Below are positions 2,460 through 10,534 of a stretch of DNA of 64,000 bases, piece by piece; the first letter of the stretch is position 1; each line of letters begins with the position of its first letter. The stretch comes from Turritopsis dohrnii (taxonomy: Eukaryota > Cnidaria > Hydrozoa > Anthoathecata > Oceaniidae), in contig BQMF02000004.1 of the NCBI GenBank assembly GCA_027922465.2, positions 2,108,001 to 2,172,000 of the forward strand, written 5' to 3'. The translations under genes were made by a program, and so were the position numbers. The notes beneath the pieces are model-generated. The model ran no database searches. It had not been told where the DNA came from and was given only the letters and a program-made list of their open reading frames with translations.

Positions 2460-2742
2460 TTAAACTAAATTAAACTACGCGTTAATCAATCATTAAAAAT
2501 TTAATTACATTTTTCCAAGACATTTTCCTTATTTTTTCAAAAACCACTTTTTCATTTTTTACAAAAATATACTATCCGAAAGAACTTGAAAATGGCTTTC
2601 CATCGATGTAAAAATTATTTTGAAATTCGGTATATTCATTTAAAAAAAAAGCTTTAAAATTTCCATTTCCAACATTAGGAAACACACTGTACAAAAGGTA
2701 CAGGTAGTTCTCATAGTTATATTCTGCAATCTAAAGAGTTTC

Positions 2743-2910
2743 TACGATGGCCCTGAAGGTTCATTGATGCGCGCACAAAAATATCCTGCGCACGAAATTT
2801 TTTCAGTTGCGCGCGCATAAAAAATAAAATTTTTACGCACGCACAAAAATTTTTATGCACGCGCACAAAAATTTTTACGCACGCACCAAATTTTATCATA
2901 CGCGCGCAAA
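2743..2910 (+). repeat. Left terminal inverted repeat of the 7.8-kb transposon
   Basis: After the unique first ~20 bases it consists of short repeats of the form gcgcgcacaaaaattttta, about four copies. The matching right arm lies at about 10345-10528 in inverted orientation. The internal iterations may be transposase-binding repeats; that is inference. Confidence 0.85.
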
Positions 2911-3050
2911 TATAGAAATCACCGCTTGTTAATTGAAGTTAATAGAAGCCTCGAATTTCGGTCTTGATTTTACACAGATTTCGTGAAAAGATTAATAAAT
3001 ATATTTGCATTACTATAATACATGCCAATATTATACTAATAGGTAGTGAC

Positions 3051-4340
3051 ATGACAAATACGAGTGATTTACCTTGCTTAAAGTCCAGTGGGAATTTAAA
3101 TAGAGATTCTTTGATAACCTCCTACTTTTCCCAGGGATATCACAATGTAGAAATATTATCTTTTCTGGCAGTTCATCATGATATCTATATAAGTTTGTCA
3201 ACGTTAAAGAGGACTTTGTCTCGACTTGGCCTTTACAGAAGACCTCCTGCTGGTACAGAAGATAGGGAAGAAGTTAAAAGGCTGGTTTTAGAAGAACTAT
3301 CTAACAGTGGAGGTGCTTTGGGTAAGCCTTCAAACCTTCATTTCGTAGTTATTGTTTGAAATTCTTATCTCTGTATCTTGATGTTGCTAGGCTATCGAAA
3401 AATATGGAGTATAATCAGAAATATGGGAGTACCTGTTAAACGAGCTTCCGTGATGGAAATCCTCAGAGAATTAGACCCAGAAGGTGTGAATGGTCGCAGG
3501 AAAAGAAGGCTTAAAAGAAGAGTGTACTCAGTGCCCGGACCTGATCATCTTTGGCACATTGATGGGTATGACAAGCTCAAACCCTTTGGATTTAGCATCC
3601 ATGGATGCATCGACGGCTTTTCAAGGAGAGTTATTTGGTTAGAAGTCGGGGTGTCTAACAAACAACCTGAAGTAATAGCACATTACTATATTCAAGCAGT
3701 AAAACAACTCAAAGGTGTGCCCACGCGAATCCGTTCTGATGATGGTACGGAAAACAGTATTGTTGAAGCAATACAAATTGCTTTGCGTTCCTCTCACACA
3801 GATGAATTTCAGGGATTGGGGAGTTATATAATTGGCACATCAACTGCAAACCAACGCATCGAGTCTTTTTGGTCTCAATTCAGGTTTGATCGGATTATTT
3901 GGTGGCGGAATTTCTTTATAGAGATGGTTAATATGTCAATCCTTGATGGTGGTAATCCAGTAATTGTAGAATGTGTTCGCTACTGTTTTATTACTTTAAT
4001 TAGAAATGACCTGACTGAATTTGCACGACGATGGAACAGGCACATTTTAGCTCCAAGTAACAATTGTATTTTACCACGTGGACGCCCAGATGTCTTATAT
4101 TTTGTTCCACAACTTTATAGTAGTCAACCATTTAAAAAGAACATTGACATGGATGAAGTTGAGGAATTTGAAGATCCCAGGTTTTCTATTTGCTTGGAAG
4201 ATAACTCGCCACAATTCTTAGAGTTCGCAGAGATAGTTTTGGGAATGAACAACATAGATGGGACTTCACGACCAAAAACATTGAAAGATGCATTTAAAGT
4301 TTATTTCATTTTGATAGAAGCAGTAAATGAATATATATAA
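3051..4340 (+). CDS. Integrase-type DDE transposase (IS3EU-like), two exons
   Basis: Predicted CDS join(3051..3321,3391..4340), 406 residues. The donor is G|GTAAGC at 3322 and the acceptor TTGCTAG at 3390; splicing restores one frame across a glycine codon. The start is the first ATG in the open frame, at 3051. Residues about 20-65 look like a helix-turn-helix. A retroviral-integrase-like core follows, with catalytic candidates D148 (HIDGYDKL), D207/D208 (RSDDGTEN) and E248 (NQRIESFW). It should cut and join transposon ends in the nucleus. It sits just inside the left TIR and converges on the HECT gene. No internal stop or frameshift is visible, so it may still be active. Assignment to IS3EU rather than Ginger-like integrases is tentative. 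Confidence 0.83.
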
Positions 4341-4927
4341 CAACCTGTGTCTGCACAATAAGGAAACCAAACCAAAAAGGAAAAAACAAATTCTAACTGA
4401 CCCAATGAACGTATGAAATGACCCAAACAATAATAAGCAATAAAAAAACGGAACCCTAAAAGCTATATATAATAAATGAACCAATGATATTTAGTAATGA
4501 ATATATAGAACAAAAACACAGCGCAGCTAACAAGAAAGCTCGCAAAAAAGAAACGAAAATAACAGCAATAATTAAAGTTCTTTAAATAAAAAACATTTGT
4601 GAAAAAACAACAACAGATAAACAGTTTGGTTCTAACAAAACATTTGGTCTCTATCCTTAAAGGAGGAAGCATCAAAGTTTTTTTCCACAAAATTTTATTC
4701 CTTTAAATCTTAGATAATAAAACAACAACAAAAGAAAGCAAATAGTCTCTGAACTGAAACTTTCTTAAGAAAAACTAGCATACTTTAAAGAAGTTATGAA
4801 AGGGCTCGTTACTGGTATTGATGTATATATCATTAGAATGACATTCACATGTTAACTGAAAAACAAAAAATGCATAAAAAAGGGAACATTTTTTCAGTTT
4901 TTTAAGGGTGAAGTTAGATAAAAAAAT
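4341..4927. other. Spacer between the convergent integrase and HECT genes
   Basis: A-rich, non-coding sequence of 587 bp, expected to hold both 3' UTRs. AATAAA-type signals are present on the plus strand near 4438 and 4468. No other feature is recognised. Confidence 0.5.
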
Positions 4928-7098
4928 TTAAACTTTCCCAAAACCAGGTGAATTCAATATGTCTTCTATAATGTTCTGAGAAAAAAATTCACCAGCATAT
5001 CGTCTTGATGCAGGGAAATTAATTTTAAACTGACAAGTATTCACTTTCACACGCTCGTTTTCCAAAAAGTCATGATCAAAGAGCAATTCAATTTTGCTTG
5101 TGGGCAAGTACTTTGACCCAGTAAGGAATACTAAAAAATCTTCTAATGAAATGCTTTTCTCTGACCATCTTTCATTTATACCATCTTCTAAATCAACCAA
5201 GTCTATATATACCATGCTTTTTACTTTCCCAAAGCCAACTTCGTCAATAAAATTATGTAAGTTGTAAAGAATATCTTCCTCTATTTCGATCTTTTGATCT
5301 TCATTTGAATGGACTGAACTGAAGAGTCCCTTTACATCTTCAGAAGATACGCTTTCATACAAAAACAATTTCATAGATTCTTCTGGGAATTTTCTGAGAA
5401 CATCTAGAACTCCTCCACACGAAAGTCCATTCATAAATTTTTGAATTTCTTCAAGTTTCGATGATATGATACAATGATGAGCAATGGTTTTCAAAAGTTT
5501 TTCCTTTTCATCAAAGGATGGCTTAAATTTAGTGTAGCCAAGATCGTAACGTTCATTGAAATCTGTCATGCATTGATTAAATGCAGCTTCATTAGAACAA
5601 TTGCTGACTTCTACCAACTTTTCTCGCAAGTCTACATCAGGAACATCACTTATTGTGCAGTAGCAAGCTTCAGCACCTTCATATTAAAATATGTATTTTT
5701 TGTAATTTAATGGGTATATTTGAATAAGATAAACATTATAAGTCAATCAAAATCACAATACAAAATTTCCTTACCTGTTATATAACCACTTAGCCCTTTG
5801 CTTAATTGATGTGGAGTGTCATATCCATGTAACAAAGCCAGAGCAACAAACTGACCAAAGCAATAGTAGTCACCACTTCCAACCTTTAACAAATCATGCA
5901 CAAAAACTTCATTTTTAACTGCTCCATGAAGAAGTTGGCCAGTAACAGATCTGTAAAATAGTGTCACAAGTTCACGTCCTGGACCACCTGTGTCAACAGC
6001 TGATTCTTTAGTACCAACACTTGTGAACTCAACCTTAAACTTTGAAAGTGGTGTTTCAGAAAAAAATATTTTCAATTTTCTGATTGTGTCAGAAAATATA
6101 TGTCGACGTCTGACATTAAATGTAACACATTTGTTGACATTCATGCATAAGAATTCTTGAGAAAGCCTTTTAATTTCTTCTGATAAAGAACTTTCTTGTT
6201 GTTGTTTGGTTAATGCATTGATCCGCAACTTTCTCAAAGTATTCTGATCAGGCCTATCATCTGGTATTTGTTCATTATCTGAAAAAAGTTCATCATCATT
6301 TGCAGCTGCACGGTCATTGCCATCCAAAGCAATGCTTCCTTTTTCTTGATCAATTCTTAGTGATTCTTGAAATTGTTTATCCTGCTCACATGGGAGGCAT
6401 TGATACATATAGGTTCTTCCACAAACAGCACATATTTTTGTTTGAGAGAAAGTTTCTAGAGTTTGATCAAAGCAACTATTCTCCAAGTTAAAATCATCAT
6501 TGTCCAACTCAAAGTAGCGTTCAGTCTGAAGAACAAAGTAAGTTCTTGATGGTGTTAATCCATGCTTTTGTAAGTATTCATTTATTGATTGTGTTAGATC
6601 CATTTTTACTCCACATGAATCGCACAAGTGTATACTCAACTCTAAAACATTTTCTTCAAAACAGTTTTCATTATTGTCTGGGAAAAAATATGTAAGAGCC
6701 AATGACTTTAAATCCTGAAATGTGGGGTCATCTGTGTCTTCAAAAAAAGCAAAGCGATGACCACCTCCTTCAGATTGTTTAACTATTTTGAAGTGACCTT
6801 TATCTTTTCGTTGCCACCTTACTTGGATTTTCATTCCTTTTCCAGCTTTTCTCTTACTACTTTGACTTGCACAGCCACTCTTTTTATTGATTTGAGTCAG
6901 TAGTTTATTTAATCTAACTGCAGTTTTTTCATTTTTTGATGGTTTGTGACAGCCAGTACTGAAACTAGTGTTAGGCCTTTTTCTATCTCCTGTCAATACA
7001 ACTGAGCCCAGTGATGTTGGTGTTGCTGTTTCATTTTTTCTTTCTTCAATTGCAGCTTTCACTTCATCTTTGACTATTTGTCTTATAAGGGAATCCAT
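4928..7098 (-). CDS. HECT-domain E3 ubiquitin ligase carried by the transposon
   Basis: Predicted CDS complement(join(4928..5676,5775..7098)), 690 residues. The intron runs from GTAAGG (ending at 5774) to an AG before 5676. The N-terminal half is charged and contains two cysteine-pair motifs (C159/C162 and C223/C226 with C234/C237) that could bind zinc. The HECT domain starts near residue 325. Diagnostic features are DTGGPGRELVTLF near 370 and a C-terminal NTCQFKINFP segment, where C656 is the expected ubiquitin-thioester cysteine. It resembles the G2/M-phase-specific E3 ligase-like (G2E3-like) HECT proteins common in aquatic animals. A transposon-borne ligase could alter turnover of transposase or host repair factors; this is inference. 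The frame is intact. Confidence 0.85.
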
Positions 7099-7612
7099 AA
7101 CAGAAATTCAGGCGCCGAAATTCATATACATATCAACTAAACAAAAAACAATCAAAATTAGGAAGTAGAAACTGTTTGTTTCTTGACCATCACCACAATT
7201 GTGAGAAAAGGAAAGAGTTGTATAGACAATATAAAAACATTTCAGTTCAAAAGGTTTATAAGAATTTTATAAGAATTTACATTGCAGCTAAAATTTAAGA
7301 ATTACAGAATATAAAATAATTTCTCCATCACAGCAGGGGTGTTGAAGAGAGTTATACAATAACAGTCACAGAAAGACTCCAAAAACACAAAAATCAAAAC
7401 CTTAGGCATAATATATACATTTAGGTGAATTCCTATTACCTTTTAATATATCTCCAATGGTCAATTAAAAAGGCCTATTCTCCGATCCGACTTGCGCGCG
7501 CATCTTTTTTTTTTCGGCGCCCGATAAATAGCTGCAGGGAATACAAATCTATCTTTCGCAGGGAAGTCATCTTGAAAGAACAAGATATAGTAGATATTTT
7601 GCCTATAAGTTA

Positions 7613-9443
7613 ATGAAAATGGTTTTAAACTGTGCTGCTTTCGGCTGTACGAATCACAACAGAATGGAGAACAAACCGAGGTTTTTCAGGTTTCCTAATA
7701 ATAATCCTGAACTTCGTCAGAAGTGGATACAAGCTTGTAAGAGAAAGAATAGAGATGGCACTAACTGGAATCCAACAACAAAGCATCTTTACATATGCAG
7801 CGATCATTTTGTAGGAGGTAAGCTTTTTTGATATTTTTTGAAGATATTAAAGTTTATTTTTAAGTTTATTTTTATGCTGTTTCCAGTGTGGCTTTTGAAT
7901 AATTACTTAGCATAAAGTACACTTTTCATTGTATGTCTGTCTTCTCTTTTTACTGCTGAATTTTATGACAACTTTTCTTATTTATGTTTCAGGTGAACCA
8001 AAAAGGGATGACCCTACACATCCAGCACATATACCAACAATATTTTCATTTACGCAGAAGACAAAATGTAAAGAAGATAGCTTACTTCGTCGACATAATT
8101 CAGTCAAAATGAGAGAACAAAACAAACAAGTTAGAAGCAGTTCAAAAGTACAGTCATTACCGCAACCTGTGTTTAAAGAAAATACAGTACTGTCAGATGA
8201 TAACAACACAATTTTTTCAGGAGCAGAAGATATGTTTATATCAGATCCATCATCTCTGACTAATGATTTTACACTGTTTGTATCACCACCTCCATCAAAG
8301 AAAACTAAGACTGAGTTTCATTGCAGTACACCATTGCATGCATCAAGTGAAGTGACATTACAAAATGTAAATAACAAAATGGAGTTCGACAAAATGAAAA
8401 ATGATAGAGATGCTGCCCAAAAGTTACAACAGTTGTATTTAAAAGAAATTCAAAATTTACGTGAAGAAAGAGACGCTTCTCGGAAAGAAATAAATGCATT
8501 AAAAGCTCGCTTTCTATCATATACAACACTTAAGGACAATGGAACAAAGTTTAAGTATTACACTGGGATCACAGTTGAAACTTTTAATGTTGTATTTCAA
8601 CATATAGAGCCACATTTACCGAAAATCAACAGATCCAAACTTAATCCAAGGGACCAATTGTTGTGTACACTGGTGAAGTTACGATTAGACAATCAATTTG
8701 AAAATTTAGCTGACCAATTTAATTGCAGCAAAAGTTCTCTCAACAATATTTTCAAACGTTGGATTACTCTGATTTATGAAAAACTTTTGTTTGTTATACG
8801 TTGGCCCGACCATGATGCTAATCTCCAAACCATACCAAATGTCTTTCGTCAATACTTTCCAAGGCTTACATCTATTATCGACTGTTCAGAAATATTTATT
8901 CAAAGACCTCGGAAATTGGATGCTAGAGCTCAAGTTTATTCCAACTACAAAAAACACTCCACTGTGAAGTTTTTGATAGCCTGCACTCCACATGGTTCTA
9001 TCTCATTTGTATCACAAGCATGGGGTGGTAGAGTTTCTGATGTAGAACTTGTCAGAAATAGCAACCTAATGAATTTAAAGGACCATCACCCAGGTGATCA
9101 AATTTTAGCTGACCGCGGATTTACACTCCAAGATGAATTTGCAGCAAACTGTGGAGTAGAGTTGATTATACCAGCATTTACAAAGGGTAAGAAGCAGTTG
9201 AGTGCCAAAGAAGTTGAAACCTCAAGACAGATAGCATCCATTCGAATACATATTGAGCGGGTAATTGGTTTGGTGAAGAATCGATTCAAGATATTGGAAG
9301 GAGTTATTCCTATTCAGATGATCAAGTCGTTATCGGATGAAGCATCTACTAATCCGGTCTCTGGCATTGATAGACTCTTCAGTGTGTGTTGTATTTTGTG
9401 CAATCTTGGAGATGGAATAGTTTATATTGAACAAAATAAGTAA
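7613..9443 (+). CDS. THAP-domain transposase with DDE_4 catalytic domain
   Basis: Predicted CDS join(7613..7817,7993..9443), 551 residues. The donor is GGAG|GTAAGC and the acceptor TTTATGTTTCAG; the join restores VGGEPKRDD, the usual end of a THAP domain. The N-terminal THAP zinc finger (C2CH) shows NCAAFGC near the start and ICSDHF near residue 63. A coiled-coil-like stretch lies about 200-245. A helix-turn-helix follows (LNPRDQLLCTLVKL), then a DDE_Tnp_4 domain with candidates D365 (IIDCSEIF), D442 (ILADRGF) and E490 (RIHIERVIG). It would bind element ends through THAP and catalyse transposition. The reading frame is intact. Many host THAP proteins descend from such genes, but the flanking inverted repeats favour a mobile element here. 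Confidence 0.85.
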
Positions 9444-9535
9444 TTCTTTTGTATATTTTGTTATATTTTTGTGCATGCATTTTGTATATATGACAGTATT
9501 GAATAAAAATTGAACAAACTACCATAGTTAGTGGT

Positions 9536-9588
9536 CTAAATTTAATTTGGGTTCGATTCCCAACTATGGTCTTATGAAACATCAGCCA
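9536..9588 (+). repeat. tRNA-like hairpin with B-box-like sequence
   Basis: ACCATAGTT at the left pairs with AACTATGGT at the right, and GGGTTCGATTCCC just before the right arm matches a pol III B box and T-arm. The piece is shorter than a tRNA and lacks a full anticodon arm. It is probably a tRNA-derived SINE fragment in the tail of the THAP element. Confidence 0.4.
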
Positions 9589-9631
9589 ATGACTCTCATC
9601 ACATATCTCTAATCTTGACTCCCAAATAGTT

Positions 9632-9633
<2 letters not shown>

Positions 9634-9669
<36 letters not shown>
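9634..9669 (+). repeat. Poly-C tract of 36 bases
   Basis: An uninterrupted run of C. Homopolymers of this length are prone to replication slippage and sequencing error, so the exact length should not be trusted. Confidence 0.9.
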
Positions 9670-10534
9670 AGGACATCGATCGAATAAGACATGGTGATGT
9701 AGCGTAGCTTTTAAAAATACTTTTTTAACTTGTGATGAACATAATTTAGCAGTTACTTTAGTAAGAATACGTCTGTCGTCGTTGAAATCTACTGCTAAAA
9801 TGCTGTACGCTGTGATTTGTTTTCCCTGCAACAGTTTCGCGCATGCGCAAAAGTTGACTTTTCGAGCCTCGTTACGTCACGCCGAATCGGAGAATATTTA
9901 TTTTTTTGTGCACCCCTGGCTGGCTTATTTTTGCACCATTAGAAACAGCCTTCATTTTGCAATAAAGAATTCAGGGCAGGAGAACCTCCCTGCAAGGGTT
10001 CATTTCAAGTCGTAGAGTCATGACCAATAATGGGATGCCTTTTTATTTGCTAGTTAAGAGAACACACATGGATGATCCCTCCCTCCTGCTCGATGAAATG
10101 ATGTAAATGGCCATTCTTTTTAGGGTAAGAATAGTTTATGAATAAAGCAGTGTTATAGTCGGTTATAGTCGAAGATAACTTGAGTATCAAACAAAAATTA
10201 AGTTAAAAAGTTGGCCGCAGAAAGTTTCACTTCACACTACCCACTTCACCATCATGTCGCTTGAACTGTCACCATGCTAACTGAGGCACGAAACGAGTTA
10301 TATAATCCAGACCAGATGCAATATAAGAAGCCAATATTTACGTGCGCGCGCAAAGCACATTTTTGTGCGTGCGTAAAAATTTTTGTGCGCGTGCATAAAA
10401 ATTTTTGTGCGGGCGTAGAAATTTTTGTGCGTGAATAAAGATTTTATTTTTTATGCGCGCACAACTGAAAAAATCTCGTGCGCAGGATATTTTTGTGCGC
10501 GCATCGATGAACCTTCAGGGCCATCGTAAGTTTC

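Follow-up and report, generated by a model that had tools for sequence, protein, structure and literature searches.

An IS3EU-type transposon in Turritopsis dohrnii with a HECT-type gene facing its transposase gene

A stretch of 64,000 nucleotides of the hydrozoan Turritopsis dohrnii (assembly GCA_027922465.2, contig BQMF02000004.1, positions 2,108,001 to 2,172,000 of the forward strand; called the window below) contains a DNA transposon in which a gene of the HECT family of E3 ubiquitin ligases accompanies the transposase gene. The element spans positions 2743 to 10528 (7,786 bp), with the ends TACGATGGCCC..GGGCCATCGTA, and the features within it are listed in Table 1. The arms of its terminal inverted repeats (TIRs), 2743-2894 and 10377-10528, are 152 nucleotides long and 88% complementary, and BLAST lengthened the TIRs to 166 (5') and 163 (3') nucleotides. 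A first-pass annotation of the window had proposed exact boundaries with TIRs and a perfect 6-bp target site duplication (TSD). This was confirmed by arms of 152 to 166 nucleotides, by AGTTTC on both sides and by further copies in the genome; as these copies are near-identical, the boundaries are not due to chance.

Table 1. Features of the transposon and of its insertion site (window positions).
Feature	Position	Strand	Remarks
5' target site duplication AGTTTC	2737..2742	.	perfect match to 3' duplication
5' terminal inverted repeat	2743..2908	+	starts TACGATGGCCCTGAAGG
Transposase exon 1	3051..3321	+	ATG at 3051; modelled splice donor GT at 3322
Transposase exon 2	3391..4340	+	rva_4 integrase core PF24764 (1.6e-37)
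HECT exon 2	4928..5676	-	remaining HECT N-lobe and C-lobe; stop 4928-4930
TGT codon, predicted catalytic cysteine C656	5033..5035	-	
HECT modelled intron	5677..5774	-	
HECT exon 1	5775..7098	-	N-terminal helix, possible ubiquitin-like fold, CxxC-CxxC motif, first part of HECT N-lobe
CxxC-x7-CxxC motif, probably zinc-binding	6385..6444	-	also in relatives
Region modelled as a possible ubiquitin-like beta-grasp fold	6508..6840	-	model residues 90-200; moderate support
Nested ISL2EU-type transposon	7479..9893	+	TIR TCTCCGATYCG, TSD AT; internally deleted, YqaJ gene missing
Nested DDE_Tnp_4 transposase frame	7911..9443	+	THAP exon in 7532-7831
3' terminal inverted repeat	10366..10528	-	final letters CCTTCAGGGCCATCGTA
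3' target site duplication AGTTTC	10529..10534	.	

The transposase is 406 amino acids long, and its D-D-E residues lie in WHIDGYD, RSDDGTE and QRIES, the last two separated by 39 residues. The earlier identification of an integrase-type transposase was upheld by the match to rva_4 (PF24764, 1.6e-37). According to the accessible text of Kojima and Bao (PMC10045372), IS3EU/GingerRoot elements usually have 6-bp TSDs, TA..TA termini and an integrase-type DDE transposase. All three were found here: the 6-bp TSD was perfect in 9 of the 12 copies with both ends set, the termini were TACGATGG..CCATCGTA in nine complete copies, and the integrase-type core is that of rva_4. Because TSD, ends and core agree with that description, the element is assigned to the IS3EU type and is a cut-and-paste DNA transposon. 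The narrower terminus of fungal elements, TAYGG..CCRTA in the available text of PMC12730594, is not present in the window element; the related element L038 fits it (TACGG). Ginger1 was rejected as an identity, since its TSDs are given as 4 bp (PMC10045372, text available in part) and those found here are 6 bp.

The second gene and the transposase gene face each other tail-to-tail. By homology, this gene is of HECT type, an identity that rests on relatives and profiles. Its frame is open across two modelled exons, encoding 690 amino acids. A catalytic cysteine about 35 residues before the C terminus is characteristic of HECT E3 ligases, and C656 is present at this expected place. A profile built from window exon 2 and seven relatives retrieved 55 distinct sequences from the PDB, with HECT-family names only; C656 was aligned with the catalytic cysteine of E6AP, and the TC residues were invariant in all eight alignment rows. 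The window protein thus resembles E6AP and HUWE1 in its HECT domain (profile and model) and in the TC near the C terminus. It differs from them in being borne by a mobile element, in its divergence and in the possible ubiquitin-like fold and CxxC-CxxC motif that precede the domain. Homologues were found in Hydractinia symbiolongicarpus, in Mytilus trossulus and in records without a species name; one homologous protein, P0010, combines a RING finger (PF13639, precomputed) with the HECT domain. In the L038/L039 group (L038:1783-3117, L039:5354-6136, L039:2000-2518, P0005), transposase and HECT protein both start with CxxC zinc-ribbon-like motifs, as if directed at the same partner or DNA.

The genome of 436 Mb (891 contigs) was searched for further copies. 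Near-identical copies were located on contigs C128 (two), C1 (two), C595, C67, C182, C3 and C15, and older relatives with 76-86% identity on C2, C732 and C351. Identity ranged from 98.6 to 100% for the main blocks and from 93 to 100% for the 3' block, and a single 5' block had 86%. The nine copies with a perfect TSD represent eight independent insertions. In the other three, one end is truncated (L012), the TSD has one mismatch (L018), or an end had been misplaced and one mismatch was left after it was re-placed (L021). Two full copies, L009 and L010, lie about 11 kb apart (C128:274212-290739) and have common flanks and the common TSD ATATAC, indicating a single insertion that was duplicated later in a segmental duplication including the transposon. 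Both HECT exons were matched in seven of the nine copies with both ends and a perfect TSD; among the seven, one has a stop in exon 2 and one an insertion in exon 1. The other two copies are internally deleted, and the end of the transposase gene is gone as well. Such deleted copies (L016 and L017) lack parts of both genes, like nonautonomous derivatives. For the check proposed earlier, whether other copies sharing the TIRs carry the HECT gene, no full-length copy without it was found among the nine copies of the window family with both ends and a perfect TSD.

To assess the association across the genome, the best 123 of 1,685 candidate transposase loci, i.e., the closest relatives and not a random sample, were compared with a HECT set of at least 215 merged loci from three queries. 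At no fewer than 93 of these 123 loci, a HECT match was located within 10 kb of the transposase, compared with about 1.3 expected under uniform placement. The two were tail-to-tail at 88 loci or more, on the same strand with HECT downstream at four, and on the same strand with HECT upstream at one (C282). The same-strand downstream matches were short and C-terminal (C102:746985, C335:399443, C376:306521, C452:42111); the C452 locus, inspected as L033:412-7266, retains only N- and C-terminal HECT parts, a remnant beside the transposase. In the reverse count, a transposase was present within 10.5 kb of 38 of the 51 HECT loci among the matches listed, and 13 of the 51 had no listed transposase nearby. 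The transposases of this count were 26 of the 123 scored loci (by eye, on shared contigs), further listed rows minus C149:866508, and two extra places.

The loci inspected were transposase-related ones (L018, L019, L023-L025 and L030-L036, in pieces 41-92% identical) and two HECT matches without a listed transposase (L038, L039). HECT-type sequence was found together with a transposase at L018, L019, L024 and L025 (which are alike), L032 (truncated), L034, L035, L036, L038 and L039. At L030 and L023 none was present in the inspected stretch, and the genome search for HECT placed a match tail-to-tail with the transposase at distances of about 9 kb and 5 kb, respectively. The deleted relative L020 retains the initial portion of the HECT gene. 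At L031, the order is unusual: a HECT-like gene (519-1733) lies upstream of the IS3EU-type transposase on the same strand, and the ends of the element were not found. Bounded elements containing both genes were recovered in three families with distinct TIRs, namely, the window family, L034 (4,503 bp, TSD GTTTTC) and L038 (4,432 bp, TSD GATTTA). The boundary script found no bounded element at L035, L036, L031, L025 or L040. The L036 family (C117, C478, C598, C829 and others) is another IS3EU family, whose ten full-length HECT matches are 99-100% identical, indicating that it is also young.

Judged from these sequence comparisons, the HECT-transposase association is old, and the HECT gene is no recent passenger. 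That the gene lies inside the element and is not merely a neighbor, as first annotated, was substantiated by the boundaries, by its travel with the copies and by the distant families. Strict coinheritance of the two genes was not supported, as the identity correlation among eight families was weak. The window HECT protein was nearer to L038/L039 (0.35-0.37) than to L034/L035 (0.20), whereas the transposase had the opposite pattern (0.45-0.48 with L034/L035 versus 0.35 with L038/L039). This discordance may arise if lineages have exchanged genes, if rates were unequal or if the HECT rows are unevenly covered.

Selection was estimated as the ratio of nonsynonymous to synonymous substitution rates (dN/dS) by NG86 with 60 to 100 codon bootstraps, the window gene being compared with each relative. 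The dN/dS of the HECT gene was 0.27 (0.21-0.36) against L018 and 0.19 (0.14-0.26) against L019. For exon 2 alone, the values were 0.11 and 0.12, and for residues 300-690 they were 0.31 and 0.13, respectively. The transposase gave 0.25 with both relatives and 0.10 with L020. The comparisons with L024 and L030 were saturated, and HECT exon 1 of L031 gave 0.51 at a synonymous rate (dS) of 1.8. The purifying selection on the HECT gene that had been put forward for checking was thus found, with values far below 1 against L018 and L019.

The outer element is interrupted by a second transposon of 2,415 bp, with matches to THAP (9.5e-15) and DDE_Tnp_4 (3.2e-50). In all nine loci L009-L017 (L009 and L010 being the duplicate pair), query position 4736 directly adjoins 7152, and the insert is present only in the window copy. 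As these loci lack the nested DNA, the original outer element had about 5,367 bp and two genes. The first-pass annotation of a single transposon from 2743 to 10528 was therefore correct in its outer boundaries but had overlooked the nested one. On C40, C717 and C284, DNA of the nested type stands apart from the outer element, and a single composite element of 7.8 kb with two transposases was ruled out, as the THAP/DDE_Tnp_4 part occurs alone on these contigs. ISL2EU elements have YqaJ as a partner gene. A longer full copy (L026:1039-5553) has a YqaJ/PHD gene (YqaJ, 2e-18) facing the THAP-DDE_Tnp_4 gene. The nested transposon and ISL2EU are alike in THAP, DDE_Tnp_4 and the 2-bp TSD, the range for ISL2EU being 0-4 bp in the accessible text of PMC10045372; the window copy differs in the loss of the YqaJ gene. 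The window copy has 36 consecutive C at about 9634-9669, where it is internally deleted.

Accessory genes are known in IS3EU-related elements, as are ubiquitin-type proteases in Ginger1. In fungal IS3EU elements bearing TET, a TET/JBP gene is flanked by the transposase gene on one side and by an alpha-kinase gene of the opposite strand on the other, according to the available part of PMC12730594; in the window element, the opposite-strand gene encodes a HECT-type protein instead. Styx of Zymoseptoria, with four coding sequences, shares an IS3EU-related transposase and 6-bp TSDs with the window element (PMC10853768, text available in part). The integrase-like transposases of Ginger1, in animals such as Hydra, carry fused OTU or Ulp1 proteases (accessible text of PMC2836005) and are like the window element in linking an integrase-like transposase to the ubiquitin pathway. 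Ginger1 differs in that its proteases are fused and remove modifiers and in its 4-bp TSD (PMC10045372), whereas the window element has a separate gene for a putative ligase and a 6-bp TSD. The available main text of PMC10045372 mentions neither HECT nor ubiquitin, and HECT is not mentioned in the available text of PMC12730594 and PMC2836005 or in the available main text of PMC10853768. No paper on a HECT ligase in a transposon of this kind was found among the open-access literature listed, Repbase lying outside the search.

Boundaries, copies, gene order, HECT homology, the old association and the constraint were all computed directly. The HECT gene is probably a long-standing, selected accessory gene whose product would act as an E3 serving transposition. 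We infer that its product is an active E3 that has been retained for a benefit to the element, to which constraint and wide presence point. The ligase would most likely attach ubiquitin to the complex of transposase and DNA, or to host proteins associated with it, by which the strand-transfer product may be cleared and repaired or host resistance lifted. Transposase-DNA complexes can require active removal, as with phage Mu and ClpX. A broader proposal is tentative: in one entire branch of the IS3EU transposons of animals, a dedicated ligase might be standard in transposition, for instance by taking the transposase-DNA complex apart once the strands have been transferred. The opposite-strand slot would then hold one or another protein-modifying enzyme depending on the host (alpha-kinase in fungi, HECT here), and the ligase module would be swapped between lineages.

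Several results count against an accessory E3 serving transposition. At 30 of the 123 transposase loci, none of the HECT matches listed lay within 10 kb; two of the 30 were inspected, and L040 (C696) has an N-terminal HECT exon only and L031 the weak HECT-like gene upstream. The identities of transposase and HECT in the eight families gave a Spearman correlation of 0.34, and 141 of 2,000 permutations were as high. The HECT dN/dS values rest on two decayed relatives, L018 and L019, whose decay is expected to push the values upward, and 140 codons of HECT exon 1 in L020 gave 0.39 (0.23-0.61). The first-pass annotation of a HECT ligase gene with intact frame and C656 held for frame and cysteine; the window protein alone had no Pfam HECT match and no phmmer match of note. 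Four of the eight relatives tested passed the Pfam HECT cutoff, and the other four fell below it. The structure model of the HECT part had a mean predicted local distance difference test score (pLDDT) of 60.

It is unlikely that the ligase instead limits its own transposase, sparing the host, and owes its maintenance to selection among element lineages. The side-by-side genes, tail-to-tail at no fewer than 88 of the best 123 of 1,685 loci, would couple their dose, and both genes are under similar constraint, but a trans-acting inhibitor is hard to retain, since a copy without it gains. Removal of a host defense or silencing factor by a ligase that is not directly involved in the transposition reaction is improbable too. 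An arms race might leave HECT less alike than the transposase, as in the window-L034 pair (0.20 versus 0.45), and the TET/JBP genes of fungal IS3EU elements are thought to aid escape from methylation (PMC12730594, text available in part). However, other pairs differ from this pattern (HECT versus transposase, 0.89/0.81 for window-L018 and 0.35/0.35 for window-L038), and exon 2 is strongly constrained (0.11 and 0.12).

The divergence of the HECT sequence and the missing Pfam match of the window protein would suit a ligase-dead protein that partners the transposase in a structural or DNA-binding role. This is quite improbable, as TC is invariant in all eight rows and no other part measured is as constrained as its exon. 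Gene capture by DNA transposons does occur, and 13 of the 51 listed HECT loci have no listed transposase nearby, as would suit a captured host gene or neighbor useless to the element. Yet distant families carry HECT, the orientation is fixed, the gene is constrained, and at least 93 loci had HECT nearby against 1.3 expected. A passenger or neighboring gene was rejected on boundaries, distribution and constraint and is very improbable.

The authors of the 2010 Ginger1 paper proposed a role of ubiquitin in transposition from the fused ubiquitin-pathway proteases (accessible text of PMC2836005). A separate, conserved ligase-like gene in young elements (98.6-100% identity in the main blocks) makes this idea directly testable with a two-gene element. 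The conserved gene for a putative ligase here and in many related elements suggests that ubiquitin tagging belongs to the life or movement of these elements and that some orphan HECT genes in such genomes may be transposon genes.

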